Source: a virus
Direction: 5' to 3' (one strand)
Length of the DNA stretch: 22,093 nt
Virus record (IMG/VR): IMGVR_UViG_3300047319_000987
Span: 1 to 22,093 of that record
Shown here: one piece after another, positions 1,020 to 9,998 of the stretch
Layout of the letters: each line of letters begins with the position of its first letter
How positions within the stretch are numbered: the stretch's first letter is position 1
Position numbers and translations under genes: made by a program
The notes under the pieces: model-generated
Told to the model about the DNA's origin: nothing
Database searches by the model: none
Seen by the model: only the letters and a program-made list of their open reading frames with translations

Positions 1020-2064
1020 AGATTATATTAGAACCTATGTTCTAAATTTGATTCCTGGTGGTAGAGAGAGTGGGGATGAATATGTAGCACCTTCTCCATT
1101 ACAAAAAGACGATTTTAAGAGACACTTTTCCCTTAATATGGAAAGTGGTCTGTGGCAGGACTGGAAACTTGGAGAAGCAGGTAATTTATTTCATTTAGTT
1201 TCCATACTTAAAAATGTACCATATGAAACTGCGAAGCAGATGGTACTTTTTAAGTTATTTGATAAACTAGATTTTGATTTCTTTCCTAAGTCCAATAATC
1301 CAACTCCAACATCTTCAATTAAACAAATACTAGAAGAATCAAAATTAGAAGAGGTTAAACAAGATTGGATTGATAGTCCTGATGAGGTTAAGTTTAGAGC
1401 TTTAGGATTTTTAATTGAAAGAGATTTATTAGGGGGCTTTAGACAATATTATTTAGCTACAGATGGACCATTAAAGAATCGTCTAGTAATTCCTTATATT
1501 TCTGATAATAAAATATATTATTTCCAAGCTAGGAGATTATTTGATTATCATAATCCAAAGTATCTCACTCCTTCAAGTGATTGTGGAATAGATAAAAGAT
1601 CTATACTTTATCCATTTAGATCAGATGTTAGTTTTCTTGTAGTTACAGAAGGTCCAGTAGATGCTATTACTTTACAGTGTGATGAACTTAATGCAACTTG
1701 TATAATGGGATCTCATATAACTAAAGAACAAATGGACTTGTTAAAGCAGTTTAAAGGTAAACTAATAGTTGGATTTAATAATGATGATCCACGAAAGTAT
1801 CCAGGTAAAACTCCTCCAGGACTACAAGGATTACACTACTTTAGTAAGGTAGCAAGACAAAAATGCTTATCTGAATTTTACTACTGTTTTCCACCAAATC
1901 CTTATAAAGATTGGAACGATATGTGGGTTGCTGGAGAATCTTGCAACGACTATATTTTTAAAAACTATAAGAAATTTGATACTTTTGAGTGGAAAATGAA
2001 ATTAACTAATAATGGAAGTGTTAATTTTACCACCAGCGGAATTATACAAGGAACAATTATATAA
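1009..2064 (+). CDS. DnaG-like Toprim primase without zinc-finger cysteines
   Basis: A 351-residue protein with a Toprim catalytic fold. The conserved glutamate motif TEGPVDAITL is at 213-222 (E214, D218). The acidic metal site lies in FNNDDPRK (D259, D260), followed by a PG-rich turn, and NPYKDWNDMW (297-306) matches the usual end of the phage primase Toprim core. The N-terminal part (about 15-65: SPLQKDDFKRHF, GLWQDWKLGEAGNLFHLV) resembles the DnaG CHC2 zinc-binding domain in pattern, but the cysteine/histidine ligands are absent. No helicase domain follows, so this is a stand-alone primase-like protein that would synthesise RNA primers at the fork. It overlaps the nuclease gene by 11 bases and is convergent with the next gene, overlapping it by 8 bases at 2057-2064. 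A topoisomerase-like or OLD-like role is less likely given the N-terminus. Confidence 0.75.
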   Translation: MNYRDYIRTYVLNLIPGGRESGDEYVAPSPLQKDDFKRHFSLNMESGLWQDWKLGEAGNLFHLVSILKNVPYETAKQMVLFKLFDKLDFDFFPKSNNPTPTSSIKQILEESKLEEVKQDWIDSPDEVKFRALGFLIERDLLGGFRQYYLATDGPLKNRLVIPYISDNKIYYFQARRLFDYHNPKYLTPSSDCGIDKRSILYPFRSDVSFLVVTEGPVDAITLQCDELNATCIMGSHITKEQMDLLKQFKGKLIVGFNNDDPRKYPGKTPPGLQGLHYFSKVARQKCLSEFYYCFPPNPYKDWNDMWVAGESCNDYIFKNYKKFDTFEWKMKLTNNGSVNFTTSGIIQGTII

Positions 2065-2962
2065 TTAAAAATGGCATCTCTGGCGTAATTATAGATTCAG
2101 CAAAAATATCATATTTAACTTGAAGTCTATATTCTCCTCTTTGATTACCAAGACCTGCAATACCTAGAAGATTATTAGTATCAAAACTAAGAATCATAGT
2201 GTCATCGCCTGTAATATTAACCAGTGAAGAAGTGTTACCAAAAGAAGAAACAATAACCCTAGAAGAGAGATTAGGATCTGAATTGATCTTAGTAATTTGG
2301 AATTGAGGATTATTGACCACAGATTCCTTAAAGAGGTTTTTAATTGAATCATCAATGTTTCTATTCTCCACAAAGATATCTGTTAGTACTTTAAGATCAA
2401 CTCTAGAACCTAGATATATTTTTTGTGTAACCAATCTATTAGATGGTTTTATTTGTAACTGTTCTACTACTGCTTTAAATGTGTCGTCATGTAAATTTAC
2501 ATAATTTACAATTATACTTGGTCTTCCGCCTTGAACCTGAATTATAGTCCAGATATCTACGTATTGCCCAATACCAGAACATCCATTAGGGATAGTATGG
2601 CCGTTCCAAACTCCTGATAGGTTTAAAGTACCATCTAGTACTACGGCATACTGTCCCTGGCCTAATTTATAAATTCCGCTTGCTCCTGTGCCAGGAACAT
2701 AATTAGATACATTAAAAGATATATCCGAGGTATTTAATGAAGCATTAGCAAAGTTCATTAAGGGAGTAGCAGTAGGAAGATTACTAGCGTCTAAGATAGT
2801 GGATAGTTCAAGACTATTTCTAAGATAAACCGATACTGCACTTATCTGATAAGGATCAACGTAATTGGCATTATTTAAGAAAAAGGTTCTTAATGCTACT
2901 TTAGCTAAAACCGAAGGGTGAGCTATCCTATCTACACAATTAGTATTATTAACTAGTACCAT
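2057..2962 (-). CDS. Unidentified protein, probable virion/baseplate-region protein
   Basis: A 301-residue protein of no family I recognise. It is rich in Asn, Ser, Val and Ile with alternating beta-type stretches, and has no signal peptide or transmembrane helix; this composition is typical of phage structural proteins. It begins MVLVNNTNCVDRIAHPS and ends with a beta-rich stretch around YRLQVKYDIF. A clear Shine-Dalgarno (AGAGGA) lies 6 bases upstream of the ATG, with TATAATA just before it (2979-2973). It is the gene immediately downstream of the gp26-type baseplate gene on the same strand, so a tail or baseplate role is likely. Its last 8 bases overlap the convergent primase gene and no terminator separates the two. 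Function is inferred from context only. Confidence 0.7.
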   Translation of the reverse strand: MVLVNNTNCVDRIAHPSVLAKVALRTFFLNNANYVDPYQISAVSVYLRNSLELSTILDASNLPTATPLMNFANASLNTSDISFNVSNYVPGTGASGIYKLGQGQYAVVLDGTLNLSGVWNGHTIPNGCSGIGQYVDIWTIIQVQGGRPSIIVNYVNLHDDTFKAVVEQLQIKPSNRLVTQKIYLGSRVDLKVLTDIFVENRNIDDSIKNLFKESVVNNPQFQITKINSDPNLSSRVIVSSFGNTSSLVNITGDDTMILSFDTNNLLGIAGLGNQRGEYRLQVKYDIFAESIITPEMPFLII

Positions 2963-3013: not shown

Positions 3014-3190
3014 TTACTTTTCGTTCTGCTTTTCTAGTTCCTCAGTAAAATAACGAAGAAAGGTTAACCTTTCAGTTCTAGTTAAAAGAAGAGAATCAGA
3101 ATAGGTAAATCCTAGATGTTTAACCAAGATATAAATTTCCTTTAATAGAGCTTCCTGGTCTAAGTATTCTATTAAGTCTCTGATAAAAAA
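3014..3190 (-). CDS. -1 frame C-terminal extension of the gp26-type gene (probable frameshift product)
   Basis: This -1 frame is open from just after a TGA (3193-3191) to TAA at 3016-3014 and encodes FFIRDLIEYLDQ then about 46 more residues. It is a highly helical, charged segment with ERLTFLRYFTEELEKQ near the end. It contains no ATG; the only alternative start is a TTG about 37 codons from the end without an obvious ribosome-binding site. The most economical expression route is a -1 ribosomal shift on T TTT TTA (3190-3184), which joins gp26-type residues 1-239 to a phenylalanine and then 56 codons, giving a 296-residue protein. The LxxTRxERxxFL pattern reads like a natural continuation of the baseplate-chaperone sequence rather than random translation. 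A broken gene, or a sequencing slip in the T6 run, is the main alternative. Confidence 0.7.
   Translation of the reverse strand, partial: FFIRDLIEYLDQEALLKEIYILVKHLGFTYSDSLLLTRTERLTFLRYFTEELEKQNEK
3142..3190 (-). promoter_or_regulatory. 26: Candidate programmed -1 ribosomal frameshift signal
   Basis: Read on the - strand, a perfect X XXY YYZ heptamer T TTT TTA occupies 3190-3184 in the correct phase (gaT TTT TTA). After an 8-base spacer (3183-3176), TTAATAGA (3175-3168) can pair perfectly with TCTATTAA (3149-3142) across an 18-base loop. Three further pairs (CTT/AAG) are possible inside the loop. The zero-frame stop TAA (3174-3172) lies in the stem, as in many frameshift cassettes. Heptamer, spacer length and stem all match the standard bacterial -1 design. 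The folding was done by eye; no energy was computed. Confidence 0.7.
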
Positions 3191-3903
3191 TCAGAGGTCA
3201 ATGGGAGGGCAATTATATTCTTAATTTGGCATTTATCACATTCAAAGGCCACGGTAGTTTGAATTCCATACTTAGTCCCTAGAATATGCTTTAAAATCAC
3301 ATTTGTATCCCCAGACTTTATTTTATCCAAGAACTTAGTAATTATAGTTTGATCAGTATGTTTATCAACCTTACTTACAAATCTCCATAAGTGGGTTAAA
3401 ACAGCTTTTTGATCAATAATAAATAATTCGTCTCTAACCTTTGGAAGTCTAACTAAAACCTTCTTTTTACATAAAGGTAATTCTAATTCCATAGGATCTG
3501 TATAATCGTCGGGAAATGGAACTACTGGAAGCTGTGAAAGTACTACAGTTAAATCATTTATAGTATTACAAGACTTACATGGAACTGGAGCCTTTAGAGT
3601 ATCTCCACTAGAGATCTGTCTTAACTTAATAAGTATGAATAATTTGTCTAATAGTAAAAGATCATTGATATCAATGTTTGGAACTACTCTAGTCATCAAA
3701 GCATTGATCGGGTCAGCTATGCCCTTCTTAGCTGAAATAACTGCTAACTCATCTCCTAATCGAATAGGTTTAATAACGATTGGACCTTTGTACCCATAGA
3801 ACTTACTTTTAGAGGGTAATTCTATTTGAACCGTTACTTCTGAGGGTTCTCCTAGTAATTCATCAACGATTTCGTCCTTCGATTTATTCTGTTTTTCTTC
3901 CAT
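3172..3903 (-). CDS. 26: T4 gp26-type baseplate hub/assembly protein (zero-frame product)
   Basis: A 243-residue protein of the T4 baseplate family that includes gp26, involved in assembling the central hub of the tail baseplate. Diagnostic features are the N-terminal IELPSKSKFY (28-36; the family typically has LPS/T-K-G-x-FY) and two CxxC pairs, C109/C112 and C222/C225. The second pair sits in VAFECDKCQ and is followed by IALPLTSDF, the usual C-terminal signature; the four cysteines probably bind zinc. The zero frame ends SDFLSET, whereas the -1 frame gives SDFF and a long helical extension (see the frameshift entries). ATG 3903 has only a distant AGGA about 14 bases upstream. It is divergent from the helicase gene across 30 bases. 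Family assignment is good; whether it is a structural subunit or a chaperone is unsettled. Confidence 0.75.
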   Translation of the reverse strand: MEEKQNKSKDEIVDELLGEPSEVTVQIELPSKSKFYGYKGPIVIKPIRLGDELAVISAKKGIADPINALMTRVVPNIDINDLLLLDKLFILIKLRQISSGDTLKAPVPCKSCNTINDLTVVLSQLPVVPFPDDYTDPMELELPLCKKKVLVRLPKVRDELFIIDQKAVLTHLWRFVSKVDKHTDQTIITKFLDKIKSGDTNVILKHILGTKYGIQTTVAFECDKCQIKNIIALPLTSDFLSET

Positions 3904-5533: not shown

Positions 5534-5874
5534 GAATTTAATTTAGTAATAAAATACATTACTGAAGTTATAAATCCTAATACTCCAAATATTATTGAAA
5601 CTGATATAGTCCATTTACCTTCTTTAGACAAAGTTAATTTTTCTATACTTTCAATAATATTATCTAGTTTAGCCTCTATAACTGAAACCCTACTTAATAA
5701 AGAAGGAGTTCCATTTCCTTCTTTTAGTATTTTAGCTATATCAGTAATATCTTCATTAGCCTTTTCTATGCCAGCCTGACAAAAAGATATATCTCTTCCA
5801 TTAAGACTACTTCTCTCTGATAGTCCGTTCATTTTTTCACTTAACGCATTTATAGATTCCCAGATTTTATCCAT
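5530..5874 (-). CDS. Coiled-coil protein with C-terminal membrane anchor (XhlA/holin-like?)
   Basis: A 114-residue protein with a heptad-rich N-terminal region (MDKIWESINALSEKMNGL; later VIEAKLDNIIESIEKL, 65-80) and a single hydrophobic helix at 89-109 (TISVSIIFGVLGFITSVMYF) followed by KLNS. This layout of a coiled coil then one C-terminal transmembrane helix resembles the phage XhlA family, small membrane proteins often encoded near lysis or tail-fibre genes. A strong ribosome-binding site (AAGGAAG) lies about 8 bases upstream, inside the fibre gene's end; the fibre stop and this start overlap by one base (TAATG). It is the last gene of the late operon. A holin-associated role is inferred; a membrane-tethered accessory protein is an alternative. 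Confidence 0.6.
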   Translation of the reverse strand: MDKIWESINALSEKMNGLSERSSLNGRDISFCQAGIEKANEDITDIAKILKEGNGTPSLLSRVSVIEAKLDNIIESIEKLTLSKEGKWTISVSIIFGVLGFITSVMYFITKLNS

Positions 5875-8800
5875 TAAGTCATCTTCCTTTTAATTACTAC
5901 ATTTGCCCAAACTCTTGCACTATTACTAATAGACCCAGGACTTGTTCTTACGTTTAAAAATTTTCCTGCTGTAAGTATGGTAGATAAATTAGAATTTCCT
6001 ACAGGTATAAGTACAGACAATAATTTAGTATCTACAAGTAAAGCAGAGGTCCCACTAATAAGAATTACTAAATCTGCTGATGCCGCAGTTCCAGAAGCAG
6101 AAGTTTGATATAAATGCCAATCAGTAATTACATAATCTCTGTCTGGATGAACGAATCCACCACTTGGCTCACCAACAACAGCGGCAGCGGTCCAAGTTCT
6201 CCAATATTGTCCAGAAGTATAAGAAAGACTTTGAAAGTGTATTAATTGATCTGTTCCGGCCCATCCTATAGCAGATCCATAATAAATAAACATTTCCTTA
6301 TGTTCTGCACTAAACCACATTGACCCTGATGGAGGACTTGATGGAGCAGTAGCAGACGGACCCATTCCAATAATCATTCCATTAATATTTCCTGATACAT
6401 TTAAATTTGTGGATACTGTTAAGTTTCCTGAAACCGTTACATTAGAAGAGAATGTTGCTCCACTTAAAGTAGCATATTGTGGATGATCATTGGCTGGATT
6501 TTTTAATCCTGCTAATGCGCTATGGTTAAGAGTAGAGGGTACCCAGTCTGTTCCATTCCATGTTAGTGATTGTCCAATGGCTACAGTAGAAGGAATACTT
6601 GTATCTGTTAGCCCACTAATAGTTATAGCTGAGGGTACCCATTTAGTACCACTCCAAACTAATGAATTACCTACTATTACTGATGAAGTTATTACAACAT
6701 CAGATAAACCGCTCAATGCAGAGGTGCCTATAACTGGTGCTGCTGGATAAATAACACTTGAAGGTACCCATTTGTTACCTGCTGCCGACCAAGCTAGTAC
6801 TTGAGCACCAGTCACAGAAGACGTAATAACAACATCTGACAATCCGCTAAGAGCAGAAGTACCTATTACTGGTGAAGAGGGATAAATTACTGTTGAAGGT
6901 ACCCACTTAGCTCCTCCGGCTGACCAAGCTAATACTTGAGTTCCGATTACAGAGGATGTTATCACAACGTCTGAAAGTCCAGATAATGCAGAAGTTCCTA
7001 TAACCGGACTAACAGGATAAATAACAGTTGATGGAACCCATTTATTTCCTGCTGCACTCCATGAAAGAACTTGACTATTAATAACCGAGGATGTAACTAC
7101 AACATCATTTAAAGCACTTAATGAAGAGACACCTCCCCCAGCTCCAGGTGATGGATAAACCACAGTGGAAGGAACCCACTTATTTCCGGCTGCTGACCAA
7201 GCTAATACTTGAGTATTAGCAACAGAAGAAAGTATAACAGTATCGCTAAGTCCTGATAGTGCTGATGTACCAATAATAGGAGGAGAAGGATAAATAACAC
7301 TTGAAGGAACCCACTTATTTCCTGCTGCTGACCATGCTAAAACTTGAGTTCCTATTATAGAGGATGTAATAACTACATCCGATAATCCACTAAGAGCAGA
7401 AGTACCAATAATCGGAGGAGTAGGGTAAATAACTGTGGAAGGTACCCACTTATTGCCTGTCGCACTCCACACTAATGCTTGTGAGTTTGTAACTGATGAA
7501 AGGATTACAGTATCAGATAAACCACTTAATGCAGATGTGCCTATAACTGGAGGAGTTGGATAAATAACAGTTGATGGAACCCATTTATTTCCTGCTGCAC
7601 TCCATGACAATACTTGACTATTAGAAACAGAAGAAGTTATTGTTACATCATTTAATCCGCTTAATGAAGAAGCGCCACCGCCGCCTCCACTAACAGAAGG
7701 ATAAATTACTGTTGAAGGTACCCATTTATTTCCTGCTGCTGACCAAGCTAATACCTGAGAATTAGATACGGAGGACAATATAACTGTATCACTAAGTCCA
7801 GATAATGCAGAAGTACCAATAGTAGGGGGAGCCGGATAAATAACTGTAGACGGTACCCATTTTGCTCCGGTTGCACTCCAAGCTAATACTTGAGTATTAG
7901 CAACAGAAGAAAGTATTGTAGTATCTCTTAAACTACTTAAATTAGCAAAAGTAGCACTAGTACTATTATAATTAGAATAAGAAATATATCCACCAGGAAT
8001 ATCTTTATTCCCAGAAAGTTCTACCCCAGACCCGTTAACAGTTAAAGTTCCTGTTCCTCTAGGAACTATATTAAAATTCATACTAGCATCGGTACCTGTA
8101 ACTCCGATGCTAGGATTAGTTCCACTAGGACTGCCACTAATATTAAAATAACTATTTCCTACTAAGACTCCTGGATTAACTATTATTAGAACAGGATTAT
8201 TACTTGCGTCCCTTAATCCTGTACCAGTGTTAAACTTTAAATTAGCGACACTGTTAGGATTACCAGAGGCAATAATAGAACCTGTAAATGTTGCGCCACT
8301 CAAAGTAGCATATTGAGTATGATCATTAGCAGGAGAAACTAATCCTGTAAGAGAACTATGAGCAGTAGAGGATATTGATACTGGAAGAGTAGATGGAATC
8401 CATTTTGTACCATTCCATGCTAATACTTGATTAGTGGAAACTGTGGAGGTTATTGTAGTATCAGTTAAACCACTAAGAGCATTAGCACTTGCAGCAGCTA
8501 ATATTAAAGTAGAAGGTACCCACCTATGTCCAGCAGCACTCCAAGCTAATACTTGCCCTGTTCCAACAGAGGAAAGAATAGTAGTATCACTAAGAGCACT
8601 TAAACTAGAAAATGTTCCACTAGTGTTTTGATAACTTGAGAAAGAAATATATCCACCAGAGATATCTCTATTTCCTCTTAATTCAACTGTAGAAGTATTT
8701 ACCTTTAATACTCCTGTACCCTTACTACTAACTATAAAATCTATATTAGTGTCTGAACCAACAACAGCAATAAGAGGAGAGTTTCCACTAGCTACTCCTT

Positions 8801-9998
8801 GCATATTAAAGTAATTAACTCCAGATCCTACTAAGGATCCTCCGTCATTAACTATAATTACAGGATTATTAGATTCATCTCTTACTCCTGTTCCTGCATT
8901 GAATCTAATATTGGTAAGTATAGCCGCAGTTGTAGATGCAGTTAATACTCCCGTGGTCTTAAGATTACCACTAAATATAGATCCACTCAAAGTAGCATAT
9001 TGAGGATGATCATTAGCTGGATTTACTAATCCACCTAAAGAACTATGGAATAATGGTCCAGCACTAACAGCAATTCCATTTACTTTAAATACTCCAGATC
9101 CTTTAGTACTAACATTAAAATCTATGTTAGTATCAGTTCCAACTACAGCTAATAATGGACTATTACCACTAGCAACCCCTTGAAGATTAAAGTAATTAAA
9201 TCCTGATCCTGTTAAATCCCCACCATCATTAAATATAAGTATAGGATTATTATTTGGATCTCTAATTCCAGTGGCACCATTAAATCTAACATTTGCTAAT
9301 TTAGTAGGATTAGCAGAAGCAGTTAAGAAACCATTAATTGTAACTGATCCTGGAAAAGTAGCTCCACTCAAAGTAGCATATTGAGTATGATCATTAGCAG
9401 GAGAAACTAATCCTGTTAATGCGCTGTGAGCAGTAACTCCACCTCCACTAACAGGAACTCCATTAACTTTAAACTGACCAGCACCTTTGGTTGTGAGATT
9501 AAAATCAATATCCGTGTCTACACCCTCTACGGACATAAAAGGAGGACTTCCACTAAATCCAGCCTTTATATGAAAATAATTTACCCCACCACCAGAAGTA
9601 CCAATATCATTTTGAATTAATACTGGATTAAAGGAAACATCTCGTATTCCTACTCCATCAATAAATTGAATATTTGATAATCTAGTTCTAGAGGCAGAAG
9701 CAGTTAATATCCCAGGAACAGTAACATTTTGAGCAGGAACCCAATCTGTACTACTCCACACTAAAGGTTGAAAATTAGATGGGGTAGCAACTATTACTAC
9801 ATCGGTTAAAGAACTGAGTGCATTAATACTAGATCCACCAATACCTAAGTTAGCCTGTGCTTCTGCTAAGGTATGACCGCCAGTTCCTCCAAACTGGATT
9901 CCTACTACTTCTTGATTACCTGTAGAAAACTCGGATATTCCGCTAGGAGTTCCTGACGGATCATATGCCGCTCTAAGTGGTATTTTTAATAGAACCAT
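5874..9998 (-). CDS. Long repetitive tail fibre protein
   Basis: A 1374-residue fibre built of repeats. The N-terminus carries GGTGGHTLAEAQANLGIG (37-54), a common phage-fibre motif. Four beta modules follow (about 98-184, 226-312, 352-440, 577-662) with the pattern GIRD...NYF...DFN...KGxGxFKVNG. Histidine motifs NPANDHPQYATLSG or SPANDHTQYATLSG appear four times, at about 199, 327, 555 and 1170. Residues 688-1158 are 11 tandem units of about 45 residues with LSGLSDV..SSV..QVLAWSA..KWVPS; three more copies lie earlier (about 61-88, 467-497, 508-537). The C-terminal 200 residues are non-repetitive and beta-rich, likely the receptor-contacting tip. No self-cleaving chaperone is recognised at the end. 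It presumably trimerises and binds the host surface. It follows the 128-residue gene by 5 bases and overlaps the next gene by one base. Confidence 0.88.
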   Translation of the reverse strand: MVLLKIPLRAAYDPSGTPSGISEFSTGNQEVVGIQFGGTGGHTLAEAQANLGIGGSSINALSSLTDVVIVATPSNFQPLVWSSTDWVPAQNVTVPGILTASASRTRLSNIQFIDGVGIRDVSFNPVLIQNDIGTSGGGVNYFHIKAGFSGSPPFMSVEGVDTDIDFNLTTKGAGQFKVNGVPVSGGGVTAHSALTGLVSPANDHTQYATLSGATFPGSVTINGFLTASANPTKLANVRFNGATGIRDPNNNPILIFNDGGDLTGSGFNYFNLQGVASGNSPLLAVVGTDTNIDFNVSTKGSGVFKVNGIAVSAGPLFHSSLGGLVNPANDHPQYATLSGSIFSGNLKTTGVLTASTTAAILTNIRFNAGTGVRDESNNPVIIVNDGGSLVGSGVNYFNMQGVASGNSPLIAVVGSDTNIDFIVSSKGTGVLKVNTSTVELRGNRDISGGYISFSSYQNTSGTFSSLSALSDTTILSSVGTGQVLAWSAAGHRWVPSTLILAAASANALSGLTDTTITSTVSTNQVLAWNGTKWIPSTLPVSISSTAHSSLTGLVSPANDHTQYATLSGATFTGSIIASGNPNSVANLKFNTGTGLRDASNNPVLIIVNPGVLVGNSYFNISGSPSGTNPSIGVTGTDASMNFNIVPRGTGTLTVNGSGVELSGNKDIPGGYISYSNYNSTSATFANLSSLRDTTILSSVANTQVLAWSATGAKWVPSTVIYPAPPTIGTSALSGLSDTVILSSVSNSQVLAWSAAGNKWVPSTVIYPSVSGGGGGASSLSGLNDVTITSSVSNSQVLSWSAAGNKWVPSTVIYPTPPVIGTSALSGLSDTVILSSVTNSQALVWSATGNKWVPSTVIYPTPPIIGTSALSGLSDVVITSSIIGTQVLAWSAAGNKWVPSSVIYPSPPIIGTSALSGLSDTVILSSVANTQVLAWSAAGNKWVPSTVVYPSPGAGGGVSSLSALNDVVVTSSVINSQVLSWSAAGNKWVPSTVIYPVSPVIGTSALSGLSDVVITSSVIGTQVLAWSAGGAKWVPSTVIYPSSPVIGTSALSGLSDVVITSSVTGAQVLAWSAAGNKWVPSSVIYPAAPVIGTSALSGLSDVVITSSVIVGNSLVWSGTKWVPSAITISGLTDTSIPSTVAIGQSLTWNGTDWVPSTLNHSALAGLKNPANDHPQYATLSGATFSSNVTVSGNLTVSTNLNVSGNINGMIIGMGPSATAPSSPPSGSMWFSAEHKEMFIYYGSAIGWAGTDQLIHFQSLSYTSGQYWRTWTAAAVVGEPSGGFVHPDRDYVITDWHLYQTSASGTAASADLVILISGTSALLVDTKLLSVLIPVGNSNLSTILTAGKFLNVRTSPGSISNSARVWANVVIKRKMT
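6525..7937 (-). repeat. Tandem array of eleven ~135-bp repeats in the fibre gene
   Basis: Eleven in-frame units encode the LSGLSD-to-WVPS module. The nine full-length units recur every 132-141 bases, marked by GGTACCCA or GGAACCCA boxes (for example near 7168, 7303, 7438 and 7573); the last two are shorter. Two units carry a glycine-rich linker (near 7131-7150 and 7671-7690) exactly 540 bases apart, and each is followed by a unit with the variant ND...QVLSW. This points to a four-unit super-repeat that was duplicated. Units differ mostly at synonymous sites and in a few residues, so the array is not a recent clean duplication throughout. Confidence 0.9.

Follow-up and report, generated by a model that had tools for sequence, protein, structure and literature searches.

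A predicted −1 frameshift at T TTT TTA would yield short and long tail assembly chaperones from one gene of a marine T4-like phage

A single gene of a marine T4-like phage very probably encodes both the short and the long form of a tail assembly chaperone, the long form arising by a −1 slip at the heptamer T TTT TTA, as judged by comparison with related loci. The gene lies on the minus strand of IMGVR_UViG_3300047319_000987 (positions 1-22,093; this stretch of 22,093 nt is called the window hereafter), as do the slip site, the extension, the candidate hairpin and the neighbouring gene described below.

The short form (TAC-N) is a 243-aa zero-frame ORF at 3172-3903. It matches PF12322 (T4_baseplate) with an E value of 9.9e-13 and 48.7 bits, against a curated Pfam cut-off of 24.5, and phrog_150, annotated as 'baseplate hub', with an E value of 1.8e-15, the match ending at position 232 of 282. 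Its AlphaFold (AF2) model has a pLDDT of 88 and resembles models of gp26-type viral proteins, the best being that of SP-15 (E 2e-18), and a search of the fold against solved structures, including those of solved chaperones, gave no PDB match. T4 gp26 (208 aa) and T4 gp51 (249 aa) both match PF12322, and both appear in the published list of hub assembly chaperones of T4 (PMC3004832). The product had been taken for a baseplate component in an earlier, sequence-only reading of this DNA; the family behaves instead as an assembly chaperone, and the 243-aa and 296-aa proteins are best read as the short and long forms of a tail assembly chaperone and not as a baseplate part. Two CxxC motifs of the short form, one at 3568-3579 (C109, C112) and one at 3229-3240 (C222, C225), are invariant in 20 aligned relatives; these four cysteines, within 3229-3579, suggest a zinc ribbon in the chaperone family.

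The heptamer T TTT TTA occupies positions 3190-3184 in the phase X XXY YYZ (GAT TTT TTA), and the zero frame, whose product ends in LTSDFLSET, reaches its stop TAA at 3174-3172, three codons (9 nt) past the heptamer. After the slip the −1 frame begins ATC AGA GAC and stays open for 56 sense codons (3184-3017) followed by TAA at 3016-3014, with no ATG. This extension, at 3014-3184, is the gp51-like part of the protein (TAC-C). The predicted fusion (TAC-NC, the long form) spans 3014-3903 and has 296 aa, of which 240 come from the zero frame and 56 from the −1 frame. All these positions and lengths agree with those of the sequence-only reading. Of the window's 52 ORF ends, one has both a slippery heptamer within its final 10 codons and a −1 extension 50 or more codons long. 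When the fusion was used as a tblastn query, both of its parts were found at each relative locus, in different frames, and the 296-aa fusion is collinear with full-length T4 gp51. The slip site of phage lambda, G GGA AAG, is different from T TTT TTA.

A direct search of viral contigs and phage records with the window protein found no close relative, and the lineage was therefore reached through its portal and terminase genes. In this way 156 loci were gathered, 23 of which, besides the window, contain the whole junction, with amino-acid identities of 26-41%; in 30 further terminase or portal relatives, many of them short fragments, PF12322 gave one clear match. Each of the 23 relatives in which the junction is complete has a homologous extension, and has it in the −1 frame; the in-phase T TTT TTN with a stop fixed 9 nt after the heptamer is present in 24 of 24 loci when the window is counted. 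The last slip codon is TTC in 20 relatives and TTT in three, and TTA in the window. Moreover, at cyanophage-type loci (80 contigs plus Syn1 and C48C1) T TTT TTY is followed by a −1 ORF in 82 of 82 cases. The claim that a programmed −1 shift joins the two frames at T TTT TTA has strong comparative backing. A missing heptamer or unrelated sequence between the frames, which the sequence-only reading had named as refuting it, was not seen in the relatives examined. The codons of the slip site are constrained beyond what the amino acids need: the first slip codon is TTT in 20 of 20 distinct sequences, against a TTC share of 29% among the remaining Phe codons (p about 1e-3); the preceding codon always ends in T in the same number of distinct sequences (p about 1.5e-5), both p values being rough because loci were treated as independent.

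Past the zero-frame stop, the pN/pS ratio between the window and its clade is 0.43 in the −1 frame and 1.1-1.2 in the other frames; in the −1 frame it is 0.31 within the marine clade and 0.25 within the cyanophages, against 0.8-2.3 in the other two frames across comparisons. Purifying selection on the extension is thus confined to the −1 frame, which makes it coding sequence in that frame and not a chance ORF. Profile comparisons link the extension to known proteins. The marine and cyanophage extension profiles match each other (91%, E 1e-6), and the cyanophage profile matches the C-terminus of gp51 (85%, E 6e-6), and the reversed controls of both comparisons were close to zero; the direct match of the marine extension to the T4 gp51 C-terminus is weak (7%), so that the link runs via the cyanophages. 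The extensions of the relatives also match phrog_634, with E values from 7e-4 to 8e-3. DUF6760 was considered as a relative of the extension and rejected, its match (E 0.007) falling below the curated cut-off.

A possible stimulatory hairpin, with an 8-bp stem and an 18-nt loop, lies at 3142-3175, 8 nt past the heptamer. The perfect pairing of 3175-3168 with 3149-3142 that had been described is present, but as strong support for frameshifting it is no better than chance: the computed stability of −5.5 kcal/mol (z = 0.00) does not exceed that of shuffled sequence, and 24% of other positions in the window gene fold as well. The z value of 0.00 rules the window hairpin out as independent evidence for the frameshift. 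Stronger hairpins, starting 6-9 nt past the heptamer, were found in 16 of 19 distinct relatives, in whose genes no more than 13% of the remaining positions equal them, and a clear hairpin is absent in the remaining three (L019, L009 and L120). Compared with the main marine clade, the stem of the window pairs in a register shifted by one codon. Taken together, the hairpins of the 16 relatives and the weak stem of the window make a stimulatory hairpin likely for the marine clade and no more than possible for the phage of the window.

The same fused protein would result if transcriptional slippage on the T6 run produced fusion-encoding mRNAs and no ribosome slipped, and a homopolymer is indeed present at the junction, reaching T7 in L120, L115 and L123. 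Slippage of this kind needs no fixed codon phase, yet the phase T TTT TTN is kept in more than 100 loci; the run has just six T in most loci, and the hairpins of most relatives sit at the spacing expected for ribosomes, so that we consider a transcriptional origin quite improbable and infer a ribosomal slip. An artefact or decay, with a formerly fused gene interrupted as a pseudogene or by an indel from sequencing or assembly, might be suspected for a homopolymer run in a single metagenomic record. It is contradicted by the same frame relation in 23 relatives and 82 cyanophage-type loci, isolate genomes included, and its probability is close to nil.

It could also be argued that the extension is a separate small protein, translated from an internal start in the −1 frame or after ribosomes re-initiate close to the stop of the zero frame. 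Many phages carry an annotation of this kind (a gp51 of 44 aa, or short hypothetical proteins), an ATG overlaps the stop or lies just past it in Va3, YB07, Atu_ph07, P-SSM5 and LR756511, and the −1 frame of the window holds one in-frame TTG at about 3127. On the other hand, that frame has no ATG in the window, the −1 frames of the marine clade (23 relatives and the window) share no start codon at a common place, the heptamer is retained even in phages that have an ATG, and T4 gp51 is a fused protein spanning both parts. We regard a separate protein in place of the fusion as very improbable, and in some phages such a start and frameshifting could coexist.

According to the frameshifting model, the majority of ribosomes would terminate at 3174-3172 and produce the 243-aa TAC-N, which would correspond to gpG of lambda and gp26 of T4. 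Those that slip by −1, a minority, would do so with two tRNAs on T TTT TTA and would produce the 296-aa TAC-NC, the predicted counterpart of lambda gpGT and T4 gp51. If the proteins act as in lambda, the short form, present in many copies, may coat the tape measure protein, and the scarcer long form may recruit tail tube subunits through its C-terminal helical part. In lambda, as with the frameshifted chaperones of long-tailed phages more widely, G and GT are likewise a short form and a form extended by a −1 frameshift from one gene (Xu et al. 2004; PMC5009743), as predicted here. Similar in mechanism is the −1 frameshift at the poly-T motif GTTTTT in the Vandenendeviridae (phage Adele), which are a different phage group and in which the chaperone extension is routinely overlooked in annotation (PMC12846349).

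In T4 the short and long forms come from two paralogous genes, whereas the phage of the window has one gene with a −1 slip site. T4 gp26 ends with FF and three further residues, as the marine short forms do, and its gene ends TTC TTT GAG, without the heptamer; T4 gp51 runs on into the extension. Since gp26 corresponds to the short-form end and gp51 includes the extension, one gene in the window would cover the roles of two T4 genes. Full-length matches of the gp51 type were found in about 1,330 records, mainly from enterobacterial, Acinetobacter and Aeromonas phages. In the cyanophages (Kyanoviridae) the locus, distantly related in sequence to that of the window, is annotated as two genes, gp26 and then a 'truncated gp51', with a T TTT TTC slip site and a −1 extension as in the marine relatives; the short form ends with FF and one residue, compared with FF and three in the marine clade. 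Cyanophage gp51 has been described as about 20% of the usual length and lacking about 200 N-terminal amino acids (Sullivan et al. 2010; PMC3037559). We infer that the part it lacks is gp26, joined to it by the frameshift. In public annotations (L174:4735-4866, L173:4750-4854, L293:1704-1784 and L291:1329-1466) the second half, called gp51 or 'hypothetical protein', is given a start inside the −1 frame, which hides both the slip site and the overlap with gp26.

The arrangement T TTT TTC followed by a −1 ORF was also found in P-HM2, P-RSM1, AG-345-L05, S-CAM22 and P-SSM5, in the Aeromonas phages 65 and AsFcp_4, Vibrio phage Va3 and Stenotrophomonas phage YB07, and in Agrobacterium phage Atu_ph07 and Salmonella phage PHA46, with a T TTT TTT version in HTVC008M and RAS14. 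In SP-15, LIS04, GXN1, Mel-JY01, G007 and LR756508 it is the +1 frame that carries the extension; the +1 junction carries a conserved NCC CGA TTY in the first three and AAC TTT TTT TGG CCT in Mel-JY01 and G007. The loci with +1-frame extensions are L169, L168, L170, L158 (35136-36216), L280 and L171, and the direction of the shift thus varies among lineages of one gene family. We lean slightly towards a history in which frameshifting is ancestral and near-universal for the T4-like gp26/gp51 chaperone, including some Straboviridae (Aeromonas phage 65, Vibrio phage Va3), gene duplication took its place in T4 and the phages closest to it, and some lineages changed from a −1 to a +1 slip.

As regards gene order, the next gene (2057-2962, minus strand) encodes a protein of 301 aa of unknown function and is a conserved neighbour of the chaperone gene: a similar gene of about 300 aa occupies the same place in L077, L120 and L285-L287, and in L077 (17703-18653) there is a 26-nt overlap between its ATG start and the end of the −1 extension. 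In LIS04, SP-15 and Mel-JY01 the tube gene comes first, followed by the chaperone, its extension and a long tail or tape-measure gene. The likely tape measure of the marine clade, weakly identified (E 0.04), is separated from the chaperone by other genes, about 4 kb downstream, and the window ends before it. Elsewhere in the window, positions 5874-9998 encode a protein of 1374 aa that contains many nearly identical repeats (ALSGLSDTVILSSVSNSQVLAWSAAGNKWVPSTVIYP) and is probably a structural protein, such as a tail fibre.

The tail assembly chaperones of T4-like phages were reportedly identified by Vladimirov, Gautam and Davidson in 2022 (Virology 566:9-15). The sequence-only reading had supposed that frameshifting might be undescribed for gp26-type genes, and in this it is not supported. 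The paper on phage Adele credits Vladimirov et al. 2022 for poly-T slip sites in T4-like chaperones (PMC12846349), and the PRFect paper credits the same study for T4-like phages with a short gene and a fused long gene instead of a frameshift (PMC10885494). On these accounts the window represents a new lineage for a known mechanism, to which the present analysis adds the survey of how far the junction is conserved, the test of the hairpin and the +1 variants; some of these may already be in Vladimirov et al. 2022.

Many T4-like phages would thus be no exception to the frameshift rule of tail chaperones, and the family offers a natural comparison of one function carried out via a slip site, via two genes, or via a slip in the opposite direction. 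The frameshift would also explain in a simple way why cyanophages have a 'truncated gp51', and it predicts that hundreds of genome records omit or mis-start the second half of the chaperone gene.
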